Origin: Bacteroidales bacterium
GTDB taxonomy: Bacteria; Bacteroidota; Bacteroidia; Bacteroidales; UBA3824
Assembly (NCBI GenBank): GCA_017962175.1
Contig: JAGCVU010000162.1
Span: 1-54,331 of the forward strand
DNA: 54,331 nucleotides
Direction of reading: 5' to 3'
Shown: positions 12,217 to 50,932 of the stretch, piece by piece
Layout of the letters: every line of letters begins with the position of its first letter
How positions within the stretch are numbered: position 1 is the first letter of the stretch
Position numbers and translations under genes: made by a program
Notes under the pieces: model-generated
Database searches by the model: none
Seen by the model: only the letters and a program-made list of their open reading frames with translations
Told to the model about the DNA's origin: nothing

Positions 12217-13101
12217 ATGAAACGTATTACTACATTGATAATAGCTGCCGCAGCAATTGTTTCCACAGCCGCGCTCCAAAGCTGCAACAACGCGCCCTAT
12301 CAAAAAACCAACGCCAAAAACCGTATGGCAAGCGTTACCGTTCAGGCGCTCAATAATATGTCTGAAATCTACTCCGAAATCGAAGAAGTGGCTATCAAAA
12401 ACGAATTTGACAACGCTCTTGCCAATGTGCTTTCGCATCAAGACGCCAACTACAACCCGGTAGTGGTCACCAACGAAGAACTTCGTCAAAAAATCGACAT
12501 CTTCAACCTTTACCGCATTGCATTGCACGAATACACAAAACTTACAAGTGCCGAGTCTACGCTAAAATCGCTCTCACCTTTTAGCAACGCTTGCGCCAAC
12601 ATCACATCTAAATTCCGCACAGCCAACGACTCTACACTTCACGAAAAAGCTAACATCATCAATTCATACATCACATCGCAGCGTTACAACACCGACAAGG
12701 TGATGAACATTCTCATCAATATGCTTGATGAAATTTGGCAAAAAGACTCCAAAGATTGGAACAATCTGCTCAACGAATCATTTGCCAACTATCAGTTAGC
12801 TGTCAACAACATTCCCGAAGATAGTTTCAACGAGGAAAAACTCGCTAAATATGTTTACCAACCTTACGACGGCAAAACAGCTCTTGTGGAGGCATACAAA
12901 CTCAACCTCATCAAAGAACGCTACGACTATGTTCGCGGATTTGTCAACAGCCAAGACAACATTACCACAGCACTTAAATATCTCTGCGAAATATCCAACG
13001 CACTGCTCAAGGCTCGCGACGTGGAAGAAATCGACAACGACATCAGCAAAGCCGAAGCTGCTCTCAAAGCTTGTGATTTTGGACAAAAAGAACTAGAATA
13101 A
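12217..13101 (+). CDS. Uncharacterised lipoprotein inserted in the dcw cluster
   Basis: I do not recognise this 294-residue protein. It has a lipoprotein signal peptide: MKRITTLIIAAAAIVS, then a lipobox-like ALQSC with the acylated Cys near residue 23, followed by a short NNAPYQKT linker. The remainder is predicted mostly alpha-helical, hydrophilic and rich in N, E, K and A, with no transmembrane segment and no catalytic motif seen. It begins 31 bases after murG and its TAA overlaps the murC ATG by one base (TAATG), so it is translationally coupled to murC. In most dcw clusters murC follows murG directly. An envelope-division role is inferred only from position. Confidence 0.85.
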   Translation: MKRITTLIIAAAAIVSTAALQSCNNAPYQKTNAKNRMASVTVQALNNMSEIYSEIEEVAIKNEFDNALANVLSHQDANYNPVVVTNEELRQKIDIFNLYRIALHEYTKLTSAESTLKSLSPFSNACANITSKFRTANDSTLHEKANIINSYITSQRYNTDKVMNILINMLDEIWQKDSKDWNNLLNESFANYQLAVNNIPEDSFNEEKLAKYVYQPYDGKTALVEAYKLNLIKERYDYVRGFVNSQDNITTALKYLCEISNALLKARDVEEIDNDISKAEAALKACDFGQKELE

Positions 13102-16725: not shown

Positions 16726-18063
16726 ATGACCCCGGAAATAGACAACGAAACTCTTGGTTTTATCTGTGAACCCACGAGAAACAATATAATTAAAGTAATC
16801 GGTGTAGGTGGAGGCGGAGGCAACGCTGCCAACTACATGTTCAATTATGGTATTCACGATGTTGACTTCATCATTGCCAACACCGACCAACAGGCACTCA
16901 ACGCAAGCCCGATTCAGGTAAAAGTTCCCCTTGGCGAAAAACTCACCGAAGGTCTCGGAGCGGGCAACAATCCTGAAAACGGCAAACAAGCAGCTATCGA
17001 AAGTATCGAAAAACTCAAAACCGCTCTCGACACAGGCACCAAGATGCTATTTGTCACAGCCGGAATGGGCGGCGGCACAGGCACAGGAGCAGCTCCTATC
17101 ATTGCCAAAACCGCCAAAGATATGGGCATACTTACAGTGGCTATCGTTACCATACCATTCAGATACGAAGGACCCAAACGTGTAAAACAAGCTCTCACCG
17201 GTCTGGAACAGTTGTCGCAAGGTGTTGACGCAATGCTGGTTATCGACAACGAGAAAATCCGCGAAATGTATGGCAACATGCCGGCACGTCAGGCTTTCTC
17301 CAAAGCCGATGACATCTTAACAATGGCTGCCAAAGGTATTGCAGAAATAATCACCGTTCCGGGCGAAATCAACGTCGACTTTGCCGATGTTAAAACTGTG
17401 ATGGAAGATAGCGGCGTAGCTTTGATGGGACGTGGCGAGGCCGACGGCGAAAACCGTGCTCTCGATGCCATCAAAGGCGCACTCAACTCTCCATTGCTCA
17501 ACAACAACGACATTCGCGGTGCCAAAAACCTGCTCGTAAACATCATATCATCGTCAGAGCGTCCCACCACACTCGAAGAGGTAGGCACTATCAACGAACA
17601 CGTACAAGCAGCAGCCGGCGAAAGCGCAAACCTTATCTGGGGACAAACCACCGACGAAAATCTCGGTTCTAAGATATGCGTCACCCTTATTGCCACAGGT
17701 TTCGACAAACAAGAAATTCTCAATCCATACGAACATCCATCGGCTCCAAAACCGGCGCCCAAACCCGAAGTCAAGGTTGAAGAACCCGCCAAGGCAGACA
17801 CCGAAAGCGAAAACACCGACAACCAAGACGAAACCGACAACGCCGACAGCACCACCGAAGGCGAAACTACCGAAAACGAAACCGCCGACGAAGAAGAAAA
17901 AATCAGCGAAGTGGTGATACAGAGCAAGTTTCAGAAAATAAACTTTGCCGATATTCAAAATCTTGAAGAAATCGAAAACTGTCCCGCCTTTGAACGCAAG
18001 GGCATAAAGCTGTCGTTCGATGTTCCAAAAGACGCTAAGAAATTTCCGTTGGTAGAGGATTAA
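16726..18063 (+). CDS. ftsZ: Cell division GTPase FtsZ
   Basis: FtsZ polymerises into the division ring. The 445-residue protein has the nucleotide-binding GVGGGGGNAANYM region, the tubulin signature GGGTGTG (residues 115-121), the PFRYEGPKR segment, and the catalytic T7 region DFADVKTVMEDSG. A linker of roughly 80 residues rich in E, D, T and N (about 340-410) leads to a C-terminal tail with CPAFERKGIKLSFD, which resembles the conserved PAFxRK-type peptide that binds FtsA in this phylum. No terminator is visible after the stop, so transcription may run into the signalling genes downstream. Confidence 0.97.
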   Translation: MTPEIDNETLGFICEPTRNNIIKVIGVGGGGGNAANYMFNYGIHDVDFIIANTDQQALNASPIQVKVPLGEKLTEGLGAGNNPENGKQAAIESIEKLKTALDTGTKMLFVTAGMGGGTGTGAAPIIAKTAKDMGILTVAIVTIPFRYEGPKRVKQALTGLEQLSQGVDAMLVIDNEKIREMYGNMPARQAFSKADDILTMAAKGIAEIITVPGEINVDFADVKTVMEDSGVALMGRGEADGENRALDAIKGALNSPLLNNNDIRGAKNLLVNIISSSERPTTLEEVGTINEHVQAAAGESANLIWGQTTDENLGSKICVTLIATGFDKQEILNPYEHPSAPKPAPKPEVKVEEPAKADTESENTDNQDETDNADSTTEGETTENETADEEEKISEVVIQSKFQKINFADIQNLEEIENCPAFERKGIKLSFDVPKDAKKFPLVED

Positions 18064-18160
18064 CTGCAAGAGCTCTAAAATTAGATACAAAAACAAATAA
18101 CAATGGCACTTTTATTGCAGTAAAAACAGCATAAAAATTAAATCTAAACAGTCAAAGCCT

Positions 18161-19312
18161 ATGACACCTGAACTCGGTTCAAAATTATTCGACATCGCTT
18201 ATCCCCTATTTCAGAGGATAACCAATGATGACTTTGAATATGTATACCGCGGATATTTCACTCACAACATCACCAAAAAGATACTCTTTTTGGCAGATAC
18301 CAACATTGCCAAAGTAACATATCAGCAGTCTACTTTGCAAAAACGAATCTACTACATTATGGTGGAGGGATTGCAAAACATCACACGGCATCAAGACGAA
18401 ATAGCCAATCTTAACACCGAAAAATATCCGGGCATTTTTGCCATACAGAAAAACGGAGAGAGATACTACATCTCCACCGGCAACATTGTGGCAAACGACA
18501 AGATACCCGCATTGCAAGAAAAACTCGACACTATCAACAGCCTGAATCAAGACGAACTCAAAAAATTTCACCGTGAAATGCTCACCACCGGTAGCATGAG
18601 CGACAAAGGTGGCGCAGGTCTCGGTCTTATCGAAATGAGCCGCAAATCGGGCAACAAATTGCTATATAGTTTTGAACAGTTAGACGACGAGTACACATAC
18701 TTCTACTTGCAAACTCTAATTCCCACCGACTCTTCGTTTGGTGCCACCGACATCAACGGACAGCAGTCAAAGGGACACAGTTCGCTCGATAGTGTAAAAC
18801 AACTTCACAAGCAGATGAACAACGAAAATCTGTTGTTATATTTCAACGGATTCTTCAATCAAGAAAACCTTCTCAGCCTGTTGGCAATCATCAAGGGCCG
18901 CATGAATATGCCCCTTACCACCATCAAGGTTTCCAACGTTATGGTTGAGATGCTCCAAAACATCATCAAGCACGGCAGCAAACAAAACAGTTCAGCAGGC
19001 ATTTCGGGCGTATTCTTCATGGGTCAAACCGGCAAAGACATTATGCTCACCGCCGGCAACATTATCAAAAACGAAGCAAAAGACGTAATCGCCGAACGCC
19101 TCGAATTTGTTAACGGAATGTCAAAAGACGAACTGAGCGACTACTACGACGACATCCTTCTTGACTTCGACACCGCCGACGCCAAAAAGACCGGTCTTGG
19201 ATTCTCCGACCTCAGAATCAAAAGCGATCGTCCGCTCAAATACCGTTTTATGAACATCAACGACGACGAACAGTTCTACATATTACAGACAGCAGTAACA
19301 ATTAAAAACTAA
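18161..19312 (+). CDS. Tandem SiaB-type protein kinase (two DUF6272 domains fused)
   Basis: The 383-residue protein contains two copies of a SiaB-like, GHKL-fold kinase domain. In Pseudomonas SiaB phosphorylates SiaC. Copy 1 (about residues 1-190) has the N-box EGLQNITRH (Glu69, Asn73), STGNIVAN, and the glycine box DKGGAGLGLIEM (148-159). Copy 2 (about 215-383) has EMLQNIIKH (Glu263, Asn267), TAGNIIKN, and a weaker glycine box KKTGLGFSDL (342-351). The N-boxes lie 194 residues apart in equivalent positions, pointing to internal duplication. Single-domain homologues are about 180 residues. siaC follows after 16 bases. Both copies keep N-box residues; copy 2's glycine box lacks the GG pair, so it may be the less active one. 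Confidence 0.82.
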   Translation: MTPELGSKLFDIAYPLFQRITNDDFEYVYRGYFTHNITKKILFLADTNIAKVTYQQSTLQKRIYYIMVEGLQNITRHQDEIANLNTEKYPGIFAIQKNGERYYISTGNIVANDKIPALQEKLDTINSLNQDELKKFHREMLTTGSMSDKGGAGLGLIEMSRKSGNKLLYSFEQLDDEYTYFYLQTLIPTDSSFGATDINGQQSKGHSSLDSVKQLHKQMNNENLLLYFNGFFNQENLLSLLAIIKGRMNMPLTTIKVSNVMVEMLQNIIKHGSKQNSSAGISGVFFMGQTGKDIMLTAGNIIKNEAKDVIAERLEFVNGMSKDELSDYYDDILLDFDTADAKKTGLGFSDLRIKSDRPLKYRFMNINDDEQFYILQTAVTIKN

Positions 19313-19328
19313 ATAATCCCACCGAAAT

Positions 19329-19703
19329 ATGGAAAAATTATTCATCGAAGAAACAGAAGACACCCCGGAAATCATCCTCGATCCGGAGCAAAACATATTC
19401 AAAATATCTAAAATATCTGTGCCCGAAAACGCACTCGACTTTTACAAACCCGTACTCGATTGGCTCAAAGAATACGCCGAAAGACCCAACGTGCAAACCG
19501 TATTCGAATTCGACCTCGAATATGTTAACACCGCTTCGAGCAAGCAAGTAATTCAGGTAATTCTTTCGCTTCAAAAAGTAGCTGAAAAGAGCGACGTAAA
19601 AGTTAGATGGTACTACGAATCTATCGACGAGGACATGAAAGCTCTCGGCAACCGTTACAAAAAACTTGTAAACGTTCCGTTCGAATTAGTGGAAATAGAG
19701 TAA
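19329..19703 (+). CDS. siaC: SiaC-family regulatory phosphoprotein (DUF1987)
   Basis: A 124-residue protein matching the DUF1987/SiaC family: LFIEETEDTPEIILDP at the N-terminus, PVLDWLKEYAERP, FEFDLEYVNTASSKQV, and the C-terminal YYESIDEDMKALG segment. In Pseudomonas, as I recall, SiaC is phosphorylated on Thr68 by SiaB, dephosphorylated by the PP2C phosphatase SiaA, and in its unphosphorylated form activates the diguanylate cyclase SiaD. Here Thr68 is present in the same NT(x)SS context and at the same number. The adjacent tandem SiaB-like gene is the likely kinase. No SiaA or SiaD is found in the window, so the output partner is unknown. Confidence 0.88.
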   Translation: MEKLFIEETEDTPEIILDPEQNIFKISKISVPENALDFYKPVLDWLKEYAERPNVQTVFEFDLEYVNTASSKQVIQVILSLQKVAEKSDVKVRWYYESIDEDMKALGNRYKKLVNVPFELVEIE

Positions 19704-19728
19704 GATATAACAATAAGAATGTTAGTTG

Positions 19729-19766
19729 GCCGCGCAAAACAAAATTTTGTGCGGCGTTTTTTTTTG
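19729..19766 (+). terminator. Rho-independent terminator after siaC
   Basis: An 11-bp stem (GCCGCGCAAAA, loop CAAAA, TTTTGTGCGGC, one G-U pair) is followed by a run of nine Ts. It ends the siaB-siaC transcript before the histidine kinase genes. Confidence 0.9.
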
Positions 19767-19790
19767 TATCAAAAAAAATCACTATATTTG
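19763..19790 (+). promoter_or_regulatory. Promoter for the histidine kinase pair
   Basis: TATATTTG at 19783-19790 matches the -7 element TAnnTTTG. A TTTG at 19763-19766, inside the terminator's T-run, lies 16 bp upstream, slightly shorter than the usual 19-21 bp. Start of transcription would be near 19797, about 26 bases before the ATG. Confidence 0.6.
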
Positions 19791-19822
19791 TTTTTTCAAA
19801 CAATCATCACCTATTTAGGGCA

Positions 19823-21844
19823 ATGACCGACTACGAAACCATCGACATATCCGAGTTTGAACGACTCAAAGAAGAAAACGCAACCCTGCGCACTATGCTC
19901 AGGAGGTATATGATATTTGGCGAATACGGCAAGTTTAGCAATCTTGAAGCCGACTTGTCGCAACAACTAAACTATACCGAAAAAATCAACTCGTTGCTTT
20001 TCAACAATATGCTCACGGCTGCTTTTGCCGGCGACATCGTTTACAACGACGAACTCGACCCTGAAGATTTTGTAATCACCCGTGTGAATCCCACTTTTGT
20101 GCAATTTGCAAAAACTCCGCCCGACGAAATCATCGGTCGTCGTGCTTCACAAACCAAATTGTTCAACGCAGAAAACTGGATTCCGCTCCTTGGCAGAGCC
20201 GCCCATTCGCCTATTCCCTGCGAAGACACCGTTACCGACGGCAACAAGTCGTATCAAGTCACGGCATTTGCATCCAAAGAAGGTTCGGTAATTGTAATGT
20301 TCCAAAATATCGACCTTCGTGCCGAAGCCGAAACCAAAATTCGCGAAAACCTCCGCTTTACGCAGATGATGATTGATGCAATACCCACGCCGGTATTCTA
20401 CAAAGATATGGAAGGTCGTTACCTTCTCTGCAATAAAAGCTACGCCACCAACGTGCTTGGAGTTTCGCCCGACACTGTTATCGGCAAAACAGCTTTGCAG
20501 CTCGACACTTTCTTCCCAAAAGAGTACGCCGATTTTTACCAAGAAAAAGACATTCAGCTTATTAAAGACAAAGGCATACAGATTTACGAAGGTCCTATAA
20601 AATGTGCCGACGGAGTTGTTCGCGAATACATTGTAAATAAAACTCTTATCAAAAACAATAGCGGCGAATTTGCAGGCATTCTCGGTGTAATGCAAGATAT
20701 TGACCGAATGATAACCGCACGCCGCGAACTTGCCGAAAGCGAAATCCGCTACAAAACACTTTTCAATGGCATTGGGCAACCCATCATCGTAGTAGACACC
20801 GACGGCAATATCATTATGCTCAACTCCACCGCTGTAGAACTTTTCGATGTTGACGGCAAAGATATTACAACGGGTAGCGATATACCAGCCAACCAACTCA
20901 TCGACATGAATCTCATCAAAGAGGTGGCTCGTCAAGGCAAAATCCTTACACGAAAAGTATGCGTCACTATCAATGGCGAGGAGCGATGGTATCTCAGCAC
21001 AATGCAACCCATCAACGACTTTTTCGGCGAACAAGTTATCCAGATTATCTCAAACGACATCACCGAAATCAAGCACTACCAAACAGAACTACTCGGTCAG
21101 AAAAAGAAAGCCGAGGAGTCAAACAACCTTAAAACTGTGTTCCTTGCCAACATTGCACACGAAACCCGCACACCTGTAAACATCATCAACGGTTTTGTGC
21201 AAATGATTCAAAGCGGAATGTCTGCCGACAAACACAAAGACTATCTCAACCTCATAAATTCTAACTGCAAAAAACTACTCGGCATCATCGACGACATTGT
21301 AGAACTCTCTATGATTGAGACAGGTCAGAAAAAACTAAGGCACGAAATATGCAGTATCAATAGCATTGTAGAAGAGTCTTCGTCGTATCTGCAACAGCTC
21401 ATTGACGAATCGGGCAAAGACATCAAAACCGAAAAGAGCAAGCCCGCCAAAGATACCGACAGCCTTGTGTACGCCGACTCAATGTGCATCAGCCAAATTT
21501 TCAAAAAACTGATCACCAATGCGGTAACATTCACCAACGAAGGCAAAATTGTAATAGGCAGCAACATTATAACCGGCAACGACGGCTCGCCAGAAATAGC
21601 ATTCTTTGTTTCCGACACAGGCATCGGCATTGCCGAAGAAAAATTGAGCGTAATATTCGAGCGTTTCCGTCAAGGCGACGAAGGTGCAGCACGACAGTAT
21701 GGAGGCAACGGTCTCGGCCTGTCGATTGCTAACGAACTTGTTAAACGAATGGGAGGAAGAATAGAAGTAAAATCCGTACTCAACTCCGGATCCACATTCA
21801 CCTTCTATATACCATATAAGAAGGCGGGAATTACCCAGCCATAA
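19823..21844 (+). CDS. Cytoplasmic PAS-domain sensor histidine kinase
   Basis: A 673-residue histidine kinase without membrane segments, signal peptide or receiver domain. About three PAS-like regions precede the kinase core (around residues 45-150, 170-285 with IPTPVFYKDMEGRYLLCNKS, and 300-400 with PIIVVDTDGNIIMLN). The HisKA motif is NIAHETRTPVNII with His446; the ATPase domain has ITNAVTFTNEG (N-box), SDTGIGIAEE (G1), FERFRQGDEG (F) and GNGLGLSIANELV (G2), all intact. The frame stays open back to 19607 inside siaC, but the ATG at 19823 follows a promoter and is preferred. The next gene begins 11 bases later; no response regulator is nearby. Confidence 0.92.
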   Translation: MTDYETIDISEFERLKEENATLRTMLRRYMIFGEYGKFSNLEADLSQQLNYTEKINSLLFNNMLTAAFAGDIVYNDELDPEDFVITRVNPTFVQFAKTPPDEIIGRRASQTKLFNAENWIPLLGRAAHSPIPCEDTVTDGNKSYQVTAFASKEGSVIVMFQNIDLRAEAETKIRENLRFTQMMIDAIPTPVFYKDMEGRYLLCNKSYATNVLGVSPDTVIGKTALQLDTFFPKEYADFYQEKDIQLIKDKGIQIYEGPIKCADGVVREYIVNKTLIKNNSGEFAGILGVMQDIDRMITARRELAESEIRYKTLFNGIGQPIIVVDTDGNIIMLNSTAVELFDVDGKDITTGSDIPANQLIDMNLIKEVARQGKILTRKVCVTINGEERWYLSTMQPINDFFGEQVIQIISNDITEIKHYQTELLGQKKKAEESNNLKTVFLANIAHETRTPVNIINGFVQMIQSGMSADKHKDYLNLINSNCKKLLGIIDDIVELSMIETGQKKLRHEICSINSIVEESSSYLQQLIDESGKDIKTEKSKPAKDTDSLVYADSMCISQIFKKLITNAVTFTNEGKIVIGSNIITGNDGSPEIAFFVSDTGIGIAEEKLSVIFERFRQGDEGAARQYGGNGLGLSIANELVKRMGGRIEVKSVLNSGSTFTFYIPYKKAGITQP

Positions 21845-21855
21845 ATTTTACAACA

Positions 21856-24800
21856 ATGAAAAGAATAGTAGCATACATAGCGGCAATCATAATTTCGTCG
21901 GTGGCACTCAACGCATCGGCGCAAGAAGAATCCATAGCCGATCAATACAAGTCGCTCACCGACCAATACAACGAATATATCAACACCGAACCATTTGTGG
22001 CATTGGAGTTTGCGGCTCAGGCAAAACAAATGGCAGAACAGTGGGGCGACTCTTCAAGCATTGCTACTGCATACAAAAACATCGGATTCGGCTACTATAA
22101 AACAAGAGTTTACTATCTTGCCATCGAAGCTCAGTTCAAGGCATACGAGATATACTCCAAACTTGCTCAAAACGACAAAATGGCTCTCTGCCAAATCGAC
22201 ATAGCCCGCACATACTACGCACAAGAGGCATACGACCTTGCCGAAGAATATTGCTCAAAGGCAATCGACATCTGCCGACAATTCAAATATCCCAACATTC
22301 AGGCAACAGCACTCACTCTTTTGGGCGACATCACAATCAAAAACGACGAAGACGATGCTCTTAAAAACCTAATTGCCGCCCGCACTCTCTACGAAGATCT
22401 TGAGGCTGAAGACAAAATACTAGAAACCAACATAAAAATAGCTCAGGCATACGCCATTATCAATGAGCAAGATAGCGCATTAGAAATTCTCGACGAGTGT
22501 TTAGAAAAATACCAGCAGAAAAAAGACCTTTATGGCATTGCCAACACAATGGAAACCTACGCCTACGTGTACATCACCGACGACAATGCCCCCAAAGCAG
22601 CTGAGTCGCTCAAATCGGCATACGAAAACTATCACAAGGCAGGACGTCAGCATGAGTCGCTTGTGGCTCGCACCAGATTGGCATCGTTGCAGATTGAATA
22701 CAATATGGACGAACAAGCTCGCACCAATGCCGAGGCAGTGCTTCACGATGCCGAAATGGAAGAATTAAACTCCGGCATATCTGAATTGCGAATCAAAAAC
22801 AAAGCTTGCGACATTTTGCGCACTTTCTTCAAACGTCACGCTATGTACGAAAAGGCGCTACAATACAGCGAACGCTACGCACAAACCTCCGACAGCATAT
22901 TTGAGCAGAAAAAGAAAGAGCAGTTTTCTGAATTTCAAGTTAGTCTCGAAAGCCAGAAACAACAGAAAGAAATCGAAGCCATCCAGTATCAAGCCGAACG
23001 CGACAAGTTTAACCTCGAACGCCAGCAAAACAATCGAAACATAATTTTCCTCGTTGTGGTGATACTCCTTGTTATTATAGTGGTAGTTATCTACTACTTC
23101 CGTTACAAAGAGAAAAACAACCACAACAAACAGTTGTCTGACTCAAACCAACGAATGCAGATAGAAATTCAGGAACGCAAACTTGCCGAAGCCGAATTGC
23201 GCAACAGCGAAGAAAAATACCGACTTCTTTTCCGCAAAACTCCTATCGGCATCATTCAGTTCAACGACAATTTCAAAATCACCACCGCCAACGAGCGTAT
23301 TGCACAGATTTTCAACCTCAAAAATAAAAACGTTGCAGGTCAGGATATTACATCGGTGGTTCCTCAAGAGGTTTTACGCGGATTCGACGTTTCATCCGAT
23401 TCGTCAACTCAGAGCGACAAGATTTCAAAACAAGAATACGAAATCAATACCGACAGCGGCAAGGTGTACGCTTCTATCACACTCAAGCCTTACCACTACA
23501 GCACCGGTCGCGAAGTGGAAAAAGGCGGAATTATGATTGTGGAAGACATCACCGACCGCAAATTAGCCGAGCAGAATGCCTCTCAACTATCGCAAAAGCA
23601 ATCATCCATACTCAACATTCTGCCAGAAACCATTTTCAATATCGACCAAAACGGCACATTCACCTACGCCAAAATTCCGGGCGACAACGATGCTGAAAAA
23701 CAATATGTAGGTCGCAATATGCGCGATAAGTTTGATGCCGACATTCTTTTGCAGTTTCTGGTTGCATACAACGAGGCTCAAAACAATGAAGACCCGCAAT
23801 ACGTTGAGTATCAGAAAGACGGCAAATATTACGAAGCTCGTTTTGCACAAAGTAGCAACAACACAGTTTTGCTCACCATCCGCGACATTCCGGCTATCAG
23901 AAACATCGGCGGCAATGGCAACGGCGACATCAACACAGCCTCAAAAGCCAAGAGCGAACTGTTGCTCAATATGACTCAAAACACAAAGCAACCCATCGAA
24001 AACATAATAGTTACCGCCGAAAACCTTGCCGCCAACGCCACTCTTCCTGAAAACTCTGTCAAAGCCACAGGCATTCTCAAAGATGCGGTATCTGTACACG
24101 AAACTCTCACCGAAATTTGGAATCTTGCCCGCATAGAATCGGGCAAAAATCTATACACACGCATTGCCGACCCCAGACGCATTGCCGACGATATTTACAA
24201 CCTTTTTAAACAAAACGCCGAAGAAAAGAATCTTGAATACACTCTCGAAGTTGCACCAGACACTCCCAAAATGCTTATTGCCGATGGTGTTAAACTTCGT
24301 CAAATTCTTTTCAACCTTGTAAGCAACGCCATCAAATTTACCGACAATGGTAGCGTTAAACTCAATATTGATTGTAAAGACACTTCCGACACACACACCA
24401 CACTTGTATTAACCGTTGCCGACACAGGAGTTGGTATTTCAAAGCAAGTGGCTGATACAATGTTTATTGCCGGCGAAAACGTCAACCGCTCGTCGGGTAC
24501 AGAACTTACAGCCCGTCTTGTAGAAAACCTCAAAGGCACTATCACTGTTGACAGCACACCGGGATTAGGTTCTACATTTACTGTAACAATCAAAGACATA
24601 AGTATTTACAACACCGACAGCGAAGAAGCAAAAGACATCATCGACATAGCCTCCACCACTAAGGCAAAGAAGAAAAACGCATCGCAGCATGAGTTTATCG
24701 AAATGCTCAAAGCCAAGATTATTCCGGAATATCGCCAGCTCAAGAAAAATATATCTTTCGATAGTTTGCTCAAATTTGCCGAAGAGTTTCGCACCACGGC

Positions 24801-24942
24801 ACAGCAACATCAGATGGACAAGGCTGCGTCGATGGCCACAAGCATTATCCACTCTATCAAAAACTTCGACATCAATGCCATCACTATATCGATGCGCAAG
24901 GTAGAAAGCTACATAATAGAGCTTGTAAAACCGCAAGAATAG
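21856..24942 (+). CDS. TPR-PAS membrane sensor with degenerate histidine kinase core (pseudokinase)
   Basis: A 1028-residue protein. A signal peptide (MKRIVAYIAAIIISSVALNA...) leads into an exported TPR domain (about residues 25-340), a coiled coil, one membrane helix (about 395-415), two PAS domains (about 440-700), then a HisKA/HATPase-like core. The phospho-acceptor His is replaced by Gln708: LLNMTQNTKQP stands where MSHEIRTP is expected. The N-box (LVSNAIKFTDNG) and G1 (VADTGVGIS) remain, but the G2 loop is altered to GTELTARLV. The last 100 residues are helical and Hpt-like (ASMATSIIHSIKNF). It probably senses through the TPR part but cannot autophosphorylate on the usual His. It is co-directional with, and 11 bases after, an intact kinase. 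Confidence 0.88.
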   Translation: MKRIVAYIAAIIISSVALNASAQEESIADQYKSLTDQYNEYINTEPFVALEFAAQAKQMAEQWGDSSSIATAYKNIGFGYYKTRVYYLAIEAQFKAYEIYSKLAQNDKMALCQIDIARTYYAQEAYDLAEEYCSKAIDICRQFKYPNIQATALTLLGDITIKNDEDDALKNLIAARTLYEDLEAEDKILETNIKIAQAYAIINEQDSALEILDECLEKYQQKKDLYGIANTMETYAYVYITDDNAPKAAESLKSAYENYHKAGRQHESLVARTRLASLQIEYNMDEQARTNAEAVLHDAEMEELNSGISELRIKNKACDILRTFFKRHAMYEKALQYSERYAQTSDSIFEQKKKEQFSEFQVSLESQKQQKEIEAIQYQAERDKFNLERQQNNRNIIFLVVVILLVIIVVVIYYFRYKEKNNHNKQLSDSNQRMQIEIQERKLAEAELRNSEEKYRLLFRKTPIGIIQFNDNFKITTANERIAQIFNLKNKNVAGQDITSVVPQEVLRGFDVSSDSSTQSDKISKQEYEINTDSGKVYASITLKPYHYSTGREVEKGGIMIVEDITDRKLAEQNASQLSQKQSSILNILPETIFNIDQNGTFTYAKIPGDNDAEKQYVGRNMRDKFDADILLQFLVAYNEAQNNEDPQYVEYQKDGKYYEARFAQSSNNTVLLTIRDIPAIRNIGGNGNGDINTASKAKSELLLNMTQNTKQPIENIIVTAENLAANATLPENSVKATGILKDAVSVHETLTEIWNLARIESGKNLYTRIADPRRIADDIYNLFKQNAEEKNLEYTLEVAPDTPKMLIADGVKLRQILFNLVSNAIKFTDNGSVKLNIDCKDTSDTHTTLVLTVADTGVGISKQVADTMFIAGENVNRSSGTELTARLVENLKGTITVDSTPGLGSTFTVTIKDISIYNTDSEEAKDIIDIASTTKAKKKNASQHEFIEMLKAKIIPEYRQLKKNISFDSLLKFAEEFRTTAQQHQMDKAASMATSIIHSIKNFDINAITISMRKVESYIIELVKPQE

Positions 24943-27163: not shown

Positions 27164-28084
27164 ATGAGAAAGATGAATAGACTTACCATTCTGACAGCAT
27201 TGATCTGTTTGTCGCTCAGCGTTCAGGCACAGCCCCAGATGATCAAGGTAGAGGGAGGCAGCTACTCTATGGGCAACCCGGGGACAACCGCGCCCAAAGG
27301 CGACGCCGACGAGCGTCCCGTACACGATGTAAAGATAAACTCCTTTTACATAGGCAAATACGAAGTTACCGTTAAGGAATACAAGCAATTTGTCAACGAT
27401 GCCAAGGGATCAAGATACTTCCCCGGCAAGCGCGGTGTACACCAGATGCCAGCCATTCCCGACTCGGCATGGCTCGTGGAGCATCCCGACACCAAAAAGT
27501 ACTATCCTCTGCCCACTCAAAAATGGTGGGGTTGGGTAGATGAATATCCTATCCACAAAATTTCGTGGTACGATGCAGTGGCATATTGCAACTGGCTTAG
27601 CGACAAAGAAGGATTAGATAAATGCTACGTTGAAAACGAGGACGGCGGTATCGACTGCGACCTCACCAAAAACGGCTACCGTCTGCCCACCGAAGCCGAA
27701 TGGGAATACGCAGCTCGCGGCGGCAAAATGTCGAAACACACAGCATATGCCGGTAGCGCTTCGCCTGCAGCAGTAGCTTGGTACGATGAAACCACAAAAC
27801 TGCGCGGTCCTCAGAAAGTTGGTACAAAAACTCCTAACGAACTCGGTATCTACGATATGAGCGGCAACGTTTGGGAATGGTGCACCGACTTCTATGCCAA
27901 AGACTTTTACGCCAAGAGCAAAAAAGACAACCCCGTAAATACCAATCTGTCGCCCTACCGTGTAATCCGTGGCGGCGGATGGCACTACAACGCCGACTAC
28001 GCCACACTTACCAGTCGTGACGGTCCTGAGCCTGCGTTTGCCAACTTCAATTACGGTATGCGTCTTGCTCGCAACGCTCAATAA
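27164..28084 (+). CDS. Exported formylglycine-generating-enzyme-like (SUMF1/EgtB/PvdO fold) protein A
   Basis: A 306-residue exported protein with a signal peptide ending VQAQ and an FGE-sulfatase domain: IKVEGGSYSMG, FYIGKYEVTVKEYKQF, SWYDAVAYCNWLS, YRLPTEAEWEYAARGG, GIYDMSGNVWEWC and RVIRGGGWHYNADY. True formylglycine-generating enzymes carry two catalytic cysteines after the RGGS segment; here that position (about residues 264-280) has none, so sulfatase activation is unlikely. The family also includes non-catalytic and structural members such as GldK-type gliding/secretion proteins. A second copy follows after 29 bases, evidently a tandem duplication. ATG at 27164 is used; a second lies three codons later. 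Confidence 0.88.
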   Translation: MRKMNRLTILTALICLSLSVQAQPQMIKVEGGSYSMGNPGTTAPKGDADERPVHDVKINSFYIGKYEVTVKEYKQFVNDAKGSRYFPGKRGVHQMPAIPDSAWLVEHPDTKKYYPLPTQKWWGWVDEYPIHKISWYDAVAYCNWLSDKEGLDKCYVENEDGGIDCDLTKNGYRLPTEAEWEYAARGGKMSKHTAYAGSASPAAVAWYDETTKLRGPQKVGTKTPNELGIYDMSGNVWEWCTDFYAKDFYAKSKKDNPVNTNLSPYRVIRGGGWHYNADYATLTSRDGPEPAFANFNYGMRLARNAQ

Positions 28085-31495: not shown

Positions 31496-32464
31496 TTATA
31501 GCGATGCTATTTCGGAAGGGGCGAGACCGGTGGCAGCGGCGATTTCTTCAACAGACATTTTGCCCGATGATTTTAAAAAGCGAGCCATATCTTTCATTGC
31601 TTCAGCTCGACCTTCTTGCAATCCTGCGGCACGACCCTCTGCTCGACCTTCTGCTCGACCTTCTGCTCGACCCTCTGCTCGACCCTCTGCACGACCCTCT
31701 GCACGTCCTTCTTGTAATCCTTTTTCGCGACCTTCTTGCCAACCCTCTTCGTGTCCATCTTCGCGAGCGGTTTCAAATATATCAAGGGTATCGCGGTAAC
31801 GCTTAAGGGATTTTTCGTACTCATCGCGCTTAGTGCCGGTTAGATGCGACACTTCGGCTATGTCAGCTAATTTATTAAAAACTGCATTCTGGGCAGCCCA
31901 TGGCATACGTTCTAATATGTACATATTCTTAAAGATATAAATCCATTTTTCAAAATTAGTTTCACATTCATCCTGTCCTTTGGTAAAAAGCGGAAGTTGA
32001 AGAAAGGTCATGCGGATGTCCTTAGAAAAAACATTTTTGTGCTTAACATTCATAAGCATTACATCGGTGCGGAAGTCGGGCATATCGGGCAAGGAGAAAT
32101 TCATAAAGGCGACAAAATATACAGCCTTGATGTCATAACGCCACGTTTTGCCGCTTTCGCCCTGACGCGATATGGCGCGGGCTACATAGTAGAGACTACG
32201 TTTTTTAAAGTAGCCTTGCTTTTTGTTTTGCATCTCTACTATTATCTTGCTACCATCGTCGGTGGTGCAGAGTACATCGTATATAAGAGTGCGGTCGTCT
32301 TCGTAGTCTGATACTTGTTCTTTATCAGAAAGCGACAAATCTACAATATGTTCCTCGCCCTCCAAAAGGGTATTAAGAAAATCCAATAGTAACGGCTTGC
32401 TTATCTCCTGTCCAAAGATAATCTTAAAGCCTACATCGGTATATGGGTTAATAAATCGACTCAT
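31496..32464 (-). CDS. Rpn/PD-(D/E)XK nuclease family transposase-like protein
   Basis: A 322-residue protein of the Rpn (recombination-promoting nuclease)/PD-(D/E)XK transposase family. It begins with the family's RFINPYTDVGFKIIFGQE segment. The nuclease core is visible as IYDVLCTTDDGSKIIVEMQNK: an Asp, then an ExQ in place of ExK, typical for the family. A helical region leads to a repetitive C-terminus made of about seven EGRA units plus related QEGR units (about residues 245-290). These proteins are widespread in Bacteroidota and often present in many copies. It has its own promoter and a perfect inverted repeat across the transcription start. No terminal inverted repeats of a mobile element were seen. 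Confidence 0.88.
   Translation of the reverse strand: MSRFINPYTDVGFKIIFGQEISKPLLLDFLNTLLEGEEHIVDLSLSDKEQVSDYEDDRTLIYDVLCTTDDGSKIIVEMQNKKQGYFKKRSLYYVARAISRQGESGKTWRYDIKAVYFVAFMNFSLPDMPDFRTDVMLMNVKHKNVFSKDIRMTFLQLPLFTKGQDECETNFEKWIYIFKNMYILERMPWAAQNAVFNKLADIAEVSHLTGTKRDEYEKSLKRYRDTLDIFETAREDGHEEGWQEGREKGLQEGRAEGRAEGRAEGRAEGRAEGRAEGRAAGLQEGRAEAMKDMARFLKSSGKMSVEEIAAATGLAPSEIASL
31632..31715. repeat. 12-bp tandem repeats coding for EGRA units
   Basis: On the plus strand units of the form CGACC(T/C)TCTGC(T/A) repeat about seven times in tandem, coding on the minus strand for EGRA repeats in the Rpn-like protein. Units differ mainly at two positions. The repeat length is a multiple of three, so gain or loss of units would keep the frame. 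Confidence 0.85.
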
Positions 32465-49060: not shown

Positions 49061-50854
49061 TTACTTAAAGTAATTGATAGCATTACGCAGATTGTCGGCC
49101 TGAGTTGCCAAATTGTCGGCACTTGCGGCAAGCATCTCCGACGACGAAGCGTTGATTTTAACAGTGCCGTTGAGTTTCTGAATAATGTTATTAACCTGAT
49201 TTGCACCCGCACTCTGTTCCATACTTGCATTAGTAATTTCGTTGACAAGAGTGCGAGTGTTTTCTATCTTTGGGATAGTCTGCTGCATCACAGTGCTTGC
49301 CTCCTCCGACAGTTGAAGGCTCTTTTGCGACATCTCTACAATATCATCGGCAGCACTCTTTGATTTTTCGGCAAGCGAACGAACCTCTTTTGCCACCACT
49401 GCGAAACCTTTGCCGTATTCACCGGCGCGAGCTGCCTCTACTGCGGCGTTAAGAGCAAGTATGTTGGTTTGGAAAGCAATTTCGTTGATAATAGAAATAG
49501 CCTCGGCAATAGATTTATTGTTTTCTAATAGGCTGTTGATTTTTACCACAACCTCATTAAACTTGTTGCAGGCATCTTGGCTTACATTGTTGGTCTGCTT
49601 AGCGTTGTAGGTATTTTGTTCAATATTCGAAGTCATCTCTTGCATAGTGGCAGAAAGGTCTTCGATATTGTTGCTCTGCGACATAGAACCCTGCATAACC
49701 TGCTGCGAAGTGGCATTAACCTGCTCGGAATTGGCAGCAAGATTTTCGGAACCAGCCTTGATAGTGTCAACAATTCCGGCAAGTTTTGTACTCATATCGC
49801 GGATGTCGTCGCACATTTCGCCAATCTCGTCGTTAGATTTATAGTCGATACGGCTTTTGAGTTGTCCATTAGAAATATCTTTGATAGCTGTAGAAAGTTG
49901 CGCAAGGGGATTTGAGAGCATACGTTTGAGGCATACAACCACCACGATGGCAATTATAGCAATCACAAACACAAGGAAAATAACCATAACTCGGAGGTTT
50001 TCGGTGGCAGCGCTTTTAAGTTCCGAATCGGGAAGGCTACCGATAACAAACCATCCTGGAGTGCCTTCGATTTTGCGGCTCATAGTGTAAAGATAATCAC
50101 CCGAGGCGGCATCTTTGCAATATTTGATGCAATCCTCACCACGCAGCACAGCCTCGCCCACCTCTTCGAGACCGGGGTAAACAGTTTTGCCATCGCTTAT
50201 GAGATTGAAATTCATAATCAAATCGTCGTAAATGCTGCCGATAATCACTGCCTTTTCGTCTACCATAAAAGTAACGCCATTATTGCCAAACTTACATTCT
50301 GACACCACTTTTTTAAGAGTGTTGAGACTAACATTGGCACAGAAAGCACCCACTATCTTGCCATCGCGCTTGATGGGCACGGCAAGAGTGTATTTTTTTT
50401 CGCCGGTAGATTTAGAAATGTCGGGACTTGTCATAGAAAAGTCCTTACCAAGTTGAAAAATATTCTTAAAATATTGACGGTCGGCGATATTGGCCTTAGA
50501 AAAACCCTTTCCATTAATGTAGTAACTGCCATCGGGATATGCCACAAACATCATCGAAAAATACTCTTTTTTGTCTTTGGCAATAGCGTCAAGACGTTTT
50601 GAATACTGTTTTTCGTCCATTGATGTAAAAATCTGTTCCGAAGCAATCCATTTAAGTTCGTCGGTCATAGTGGCGAGTTTATCAGTTACCTCCTGAGCAG
50701 ATTTAGCCGAAAGTTCCTGCATACAGTATTCAAAGAAAGTTTTCTGAGATTTAAAATTAATATGATAACTTACCGCCATCATAATTATCAATGTGATAGC
50801 CACAATGGGGATAATTATCCTAAGTATCTTTGAGTAAACAGAAGTTCTTTTCAT
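49061..50854 (-). CDS. Methyl-accepting chemotaxis protein with Cache-type sensor
   Basis: A 597-residue chemoreceptor. Membrane helix 1 (about residues 8-28, [19 protein letters not shown]) and helix 2 (about 285-305, [21 protein letters not shown]) frame an extracytoplasmic dCache-like domain. A HAMP domain (about 310-360) and the coiled-coil signalling domain follow, with the highly conserved tip [20 protein letters not shown] and [16 protein letters not shown] (about 460-495). An in-frame start at 50893 is possible, but the ATG at 50854 starts MKRTSVYSK and is preferred. No cheA, cheW, flagellar or gliding gene is present in the window. Confidence 0.94.
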
Positions 50855-50932
50855 AGGTGTACGATTTAATGGTGATCGAGAGTAAATATACAAATTACGT
50901 GCCTTTTAACAAAGGGATAACATTTGATTAAC

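Follow-up and report, generated by a model that had tools for sequence, protein, structure and literature searches.

The closest described relative of the system considered here is SiaABCD of Pseudomonas aeruginosa, in which phosphorylation of SiaC controls the diguanylate cyclase SiaD (PMC7647112, PMC8457831). A similar logic, with a GHKL kinase, a STAS-like substrate and a PP2C phosphatase, is found in the Bacillus switches SpoIIAB-SpoIIAA-SpoIIE and RsbW-RsbV-RsbU. To our knowledge, activation of a diguanylate cyclase is the one role described so far for SiaC. The subject of this work is a SiaB-SiaC module in a 54,331-nucleotide stretch of DNA (hereafter, the window), which is contig C13 of a 298-contig Bacteroidales metagenome-assembled genome (MAG; G000, 92% complete, 8% contamination). 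Its named relatives come from the rumen, other stomach compartments and the hindgut of yak, goat, sheep, deer and horse.

Like SiaABCD, the module has a SiaB-family kinase, a SiaC with the threonine T68, adjacent SiaB and SiaC genes, and PP2C proteins encoded in the genome. Unlike SiaABCD, its SiaB is a fused tandem (SiaBB), the PP2C is unlinked, a sigma54-type promoter precedes the kinase gene, and the module lies behind ftsZ. SiaB and SiaC are thus present, while both the operon-linked SiaA and the SiaD (GGDEF) target are missing, and we therefore regard the system as SiaABC-like rather than as a SiaABCD system. We consider it fairly probable that positions 18104-19703 constitute a self-contained, RpoN-driven SiaB-SiaC phospho-switch that was relocated behind ftsZ, is served by an unlinked PP2C and acts on a target other than a cyclase. 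The module comprises:

18104-18119, plus strand: putative sigma54-type (-24/-12) promoter TGGCACTTTTATTGCA, 57 bp before SiaBB, in a 98-bp spacer
18161-19312, plus strand: SiaBB, fused tandem SiaB-like GHKL protein kinase of 383 amino acids; PF19788 (DUF6272) matched twice, E=2.7e-66
19329-19703, plus strand: SiaC, STAS-like substrate; PF09345 (DUF1987), E 4e-35

The SiaBB-SiaC pair and its output

SiaBB consists of two kinase-like lobes, lobe 1 (residues 58-183) and lobe 2 (residues 253-375). The N-box Glu and Asn residues (E69/N73 and E263/N267) are invariant in both lobes across 48 tandem proteins, in which the G2 box is intact in lobe 1 (KGGAGLGL) and altered in lobe 2 (xKKTGLGF). The AlphaFold model of SiaBB (predicted local distance difference test, pLDDT, 81; predicted template modelling score, pTM, 0.81) aligns in structure comparison to P. 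aeruginosa SiaB (6kko_A) with Z 14.5, and both lobes align to the anti-sigma kinases SpoIIAB/RsbW/UsfX with Z about 9. The latter similarity, together with the STAS-like nature of SiaC, would fit a partner switch of the sigma/anti-sigma type, in which SiaBB holds another protein and frees it when SiaC is unphosphorylated. However, P. aeruginosa SiaB, which is not an anti-sigma factor, is the closer structural match, the families present here are DUF6272 and DUF1987/SiaC rather than RsbW/RsbV, and the module is not linked to a sigma factor gene; hence we regard such a mechanism as unlikely. Our literature search found no paper that deals with DUF6272 or with SiaC of Bacteroidota.

The phospho-acceptor of SiaC is T68 (codon 19530-19532), as aligned to P. 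aeruginosa SiaC (6kko_C), in agreement with the residue number given in the initial annotation of this locus, and the corresponding column is occupied by T or S in all 56 SiaC sequences compared. The pairing of SiaB with SiaC is supported by natural single-chain SiaB-SiaB-SiaC fusions (a "Rosetta stone") of 518-519 amino acids in two other Bacteroidales genomes (L094/L065 and L104). The fusion of G053 folds confidently (pLDDT 89, pTM 0.76), and the 6kko SiaB was listed for this model by Foldseek but not by VIA-align.

A GGDEF domain was matched neither in the window nor anywhere in its own genome, nor in any of the 18 genomes of the genus. Among 59 sampled relatives it was found in a single genome, one without SiaB, while none of the 35 relatives with SiaB matches contained it. 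Of 296 genomes sampled across the phylum, 18 had SiaC; the five of these that belong to the class Bacteroidia are devoid of GGDEF, while the remaining 13 possess it, and in two genomes from other classes of the phylum (G183 and G191) SiaC adjoins the GGDEF gene, as judged from coordinates. Since no GGDEF was found in 18/18 genomes of the genus, a diguanylate cyclase is unlikely to be the output, and the switch in this genus probably acts on something else. The initial annotation had noticed the lack of SiaD and supposed that a SiaBC switch had been rewired to a different output; the former now extends to the whole genome and genus, and the latter gains support from the GGDEF counts.

As to what that output may be, no recurrent gene adjoins SiaC among the loci inspected, where its neighbors include an ABC exporter, an AMP-binding enzyme, UbiD, an arabinofuranosidase and an M28 peptidase. 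The own genome encodes 17 SiaC and 18 SiaB domains; these numbers, as well as the PP2C count given below, are upper bounds, because one region seems to be present in two versions, on contigs C66 and C79. The two contigs (L032 and L033) carry syntenic, near-duplicate SiaBB-SiaC regions, which suggests a second strain in the MAG.

The sigma54-type promoter and the candidate phosphatase

Within the window, only the element TGGCACTTTTATTGCA fits TGGCAYN5TTGCW exactly (shuffling gives an expectation of 0.15 matches). The consensus TGGCA[CT]TTTTATTGCA precedes SiaBB in 18/18 genomes of the genus, mostly by 44-88 bp, and is the sole conserved block of the spacer in an 85-nt alignment. When a slightly relaxed pattern was applied to 875 kb of fetched loci, 18 of the 25 matches were the site upstream of SiaBB. 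The element fits the published sigma54 consensus TGGCAC-N5-7-TTGCT, including GG-N10-GC (PMC12316311), and RpoN is encoded in 15 of the 18 genomes, the other three being 92, 61 and 64% complete. A variant, GGCATTTT(T/A)ATTGCT, lies upstream of four of the seven outgroup orthologs. What precedes SiaBB thus looks like a sigma54-type promoter, and positions 18104-19703 look like a self-contained RpoN operon. The promoter, with its variant persisting in outgroup orthologs, is the new element of this system, and we infer that the module already carried it when it moved behind ftsZ. Co-transcription with ftsZ was considered as the sole route of expression and is not favored, because this conserved element stands before SiaBB.

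No PP2C match was found within the window, so that the description of the module as lacking SiaA holds locally; on the other hand, the genome yields about 50 PP2C (SpoIIE) hits, including an unlinked candidate for the cognate enzyme. In four outgroups the genes run NUDIX, M14 peptidase, PP2C, an oppositely oriented ATP-grasp-like gene, SiaBB and SiaC, where the PP2C protein (780-899 amino acids) has PAS domains and, in the one long form that was scanned, also a YfiR/DUF4154 domain. A NUDIX-PP2C pair is found elsewhere in seven genomes of the genus: in the own genome on contig C147, from position 27907 to the contig end, and in six more, among them G003, whose pair shares a contig with SiaBB at a distance of about 136 kb. 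The C147-type PP2C is present at full length in G003 and G005. The visible part of the C147 frame ends in the PP2C motifs GDFYW and DCTGHG, and the N-terminal part of this type of PP2C is matched, with varying strength, in 18/18 genomes of the genus. As its outgroup counterpart adjoins the orthologous SiaBB-SiaC genes, we take this YfiR-PAS-PAS-PP2C protein as the likely cognate, SiaA-like phosphatase of the module.

Several observations weigh against the reading of the module as an RpoN-driven switch with a remote phosphatase. The sigma54-type motif is absent in three of the seven outgroups and stands about 270 bp upstream in two; the incomplete MAG that contains the window yielded no RpoN gene, and the fetched loci no enhancer-binding protein recognizable by the GAFTGA motif; and the SiaBB promoter is a consensus match. 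As for the phosphatase, its pairing with the switch derives from linkage in the outgroups, and the three most diverged genomes of the genus match the coiled-coil part of the PP2C alone.

The own genome also contains a complete PP2C-SiaB-SiaC set on contig C137 (L026), followed by an ABC-2 exporter gene. It shares with the module the A, B and C components and the GGDEF-free genome, but differs in having a single SiaB lobe and an adjacent PP2C; the set in G003 (L108) is alike in size and order. The exporter is a candidate target of control by this set. Downstream of yet another SiaBB-SiaC pair lies a hybrid-sensor-like protein of 1322 amino acids (L031, 3947-7915), with two-component-propeller, Y_Y_Y, GAF and PP2C domains.

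Neighbors of the module

The module stands in the order ftsQ-ftsA-ftsZ, SiaBB, SiaC, PAS-PAS histidine kinase and TPR-PAS-HATPase protein, with ftsZ and the four genes behind it on the plus strand; here both coordinates and Pfam agree with the gene content and the position right after ftsZ that had been described at the outset. The features flanking the module are:

16726-18063, plus strand: ftsZ (Pfam Tubulin/FtsZ_C), the last gene of the dcw cluster, a neighbor outside the switch
19729-19764, plus strand: hairpin with T-tract resembling an intrinsic terminator; 11-bp stem, 9 T, -17.2 kcal/mol, z -2.8
19783-19790, plus strand: TATATTTG, promoter-like box ahead of the histidine kinase
19823-21844, plus strand: PAS-PAS-HisKA-HATPase histidine kinase of 673 amino acids (Pfam), with the H-box His present
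21856-24942, plus strand: TPR-PAS-HATPase pseudo-histidine kinase of 1028 amino acids (Pfam), with the H-box His replaced by Gln708

The order ftsZ-SiaBB-SiaC recurs in every one of the 16 genomes of the genus that are informative (the window and 15 others; L085 and L091 end too close to the module to be informative), and a scan of the collection found no ftsZ-linked SiaBB copy outside the genus. In the SiaBB tree the ftsZ-linked clade is monophyletic (17/17), and so is the clade that includes the outgroups (24/24), with support of 1.0. The nearest orthologs beyond the genus are 57-64% identical and not adjacent to ftsZ. Another SiaBB, on contig C8, was rejected as an ortholog of the ftsZ-linked gene: it adjoins threonine synthase/aspartokinase-like genes and a Cache-MCP gene. 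Cache-HAMP-MCP chemoreceptor-like proteins are encoded in the window (49061-50893, minus strand) and at L039 (3472-5283), one of them directly downstream of the contig C8 SiaBB.

This synteny, which persists while the downstream genes vary, could be taken to mean that the linkage is functional and that FtsZ, or another division or wall enzyme, is a target of SiaC or SiaBB, as the initial annotation had also supposed. SiaBB and SiaC are indeed the most constrained genes of the locus: identity to the window is 79-98% for SiaC and 69-98% for SiaBB, versus 43-91% for FtsQ, 45-94% for FtsA and 62-83% for MurC, and the FtsZ core, at 65-73% in distant members of the genus, is below SiaBB and SiaC, which mostly exceed it. 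There is also a precedent in Bacillus, where the PP2C phosphatase SpoIIE works with FtsZ (PMC5373596, PMC4714977). However, this precedent is an analogy, synteny within a single genus is weak evidence, the outgroup orthologs lie away from ftsZ, and the module has a sigma54-type promoter of its own that is older than the linkage, all of which makes a role in division improbable in our opinion. A broader proposal, in which a sigma54-controlled tandem SiaB-SiaC was recruited to the neighboring division machinery or to a wholly new class of targets, replacing cyclic di-GMP control, appears doubtful to us as well.

The second candidate partner is the kinase pair that follows siaC. The open reading frame of the histidine kinase opens mechanically at 19607, inside siaC; its start was placed at 19823 because it is conserved there, and both start and H-box are conserved in six genomes. 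Gln708 is present in 6/6 genomes that possess the TPR protein and the G2 box is degenerate, and on these sequence grounds we class the protein as a conserved pseudokinase. That this pair could feed sensory signals into the SiaBC switch is suggested by its location, adjacent and on the same strand in six genomes, and by two relatives (L078 and L079) in which the kinase begins a few bases past siaC; the terminator-like hairpin, similar in three relatives, is absent in these two, and coupling to siaC may exist there. In the window, however, the hairpin and the kinase's own promoter-like box, TATATTTG, which matches the Bacteroidota -7 box TAnnTTTG, separate the pair from the module. Moreover, the pair follows siaC in only six of the 18 genomes of the genus and was not found there in the others, the phospho-chemistry of histidine kinases differs from that of SiaB and SiaC, and no receiver domain links the two. 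The kinase pair thus appears to be a subclade-specific accessory, with its own transcription unit in the window, and there is little to recommend it as the input. The kinases, originally described as joined to the SiaBC module, are adjacent and on the same strand, but the terminator-like hairpin lies between; a functional tie to them is disfavored, and of the gene order proposed for survey in Bacteroidota, the ftsZ-SiaBB-SiaC part is kept, in this genus only, while the histidine kinase is not.

Elsewhere in the window, a protein of 294 amino acids without a Pfam match is encoded between murG and murC of the dcw cluster (12217-13101, plus strand), also in several relatives, and a PD-(D/E)XK nuclease family transposase gene (31496-32464, minus strand) adjoins that of glutamate dehydrogenase.

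Proposed mechanism and implications

We propose that SiaBB phosphorylates SiaC at T68, probably via lobe 1; lobe 2 would be a dimer partner fused to it, or have a regulatory role. The membrane YfiR-PAS-PAS-PP2C protein would dephosphorylate SiaC upon a periplasmic or redox-type signal, and unphosphorylated SiaC would in turn bind a target other than a diguanylate cyclase. The place behind ftsZ would reflect relocation of a module that, in the outgroups, sits beside the PP2C phosphatase, and the histidine kinase and TPR pseudokinase would be later neighbors.

A single genome of this group encodes up to 17 SiaC and 18 SiaB domains and yields about 50 PP2C hits, while GGDEF was not found; since it was not found, SiaC presumably has other targets in the group. 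The SiaBB-SiaC module has defined boundaries, probably comes with a sigma54 promoter and a cognate phosphatase, and has natural fusion counterparts, which makes it a clean system in which to find them.

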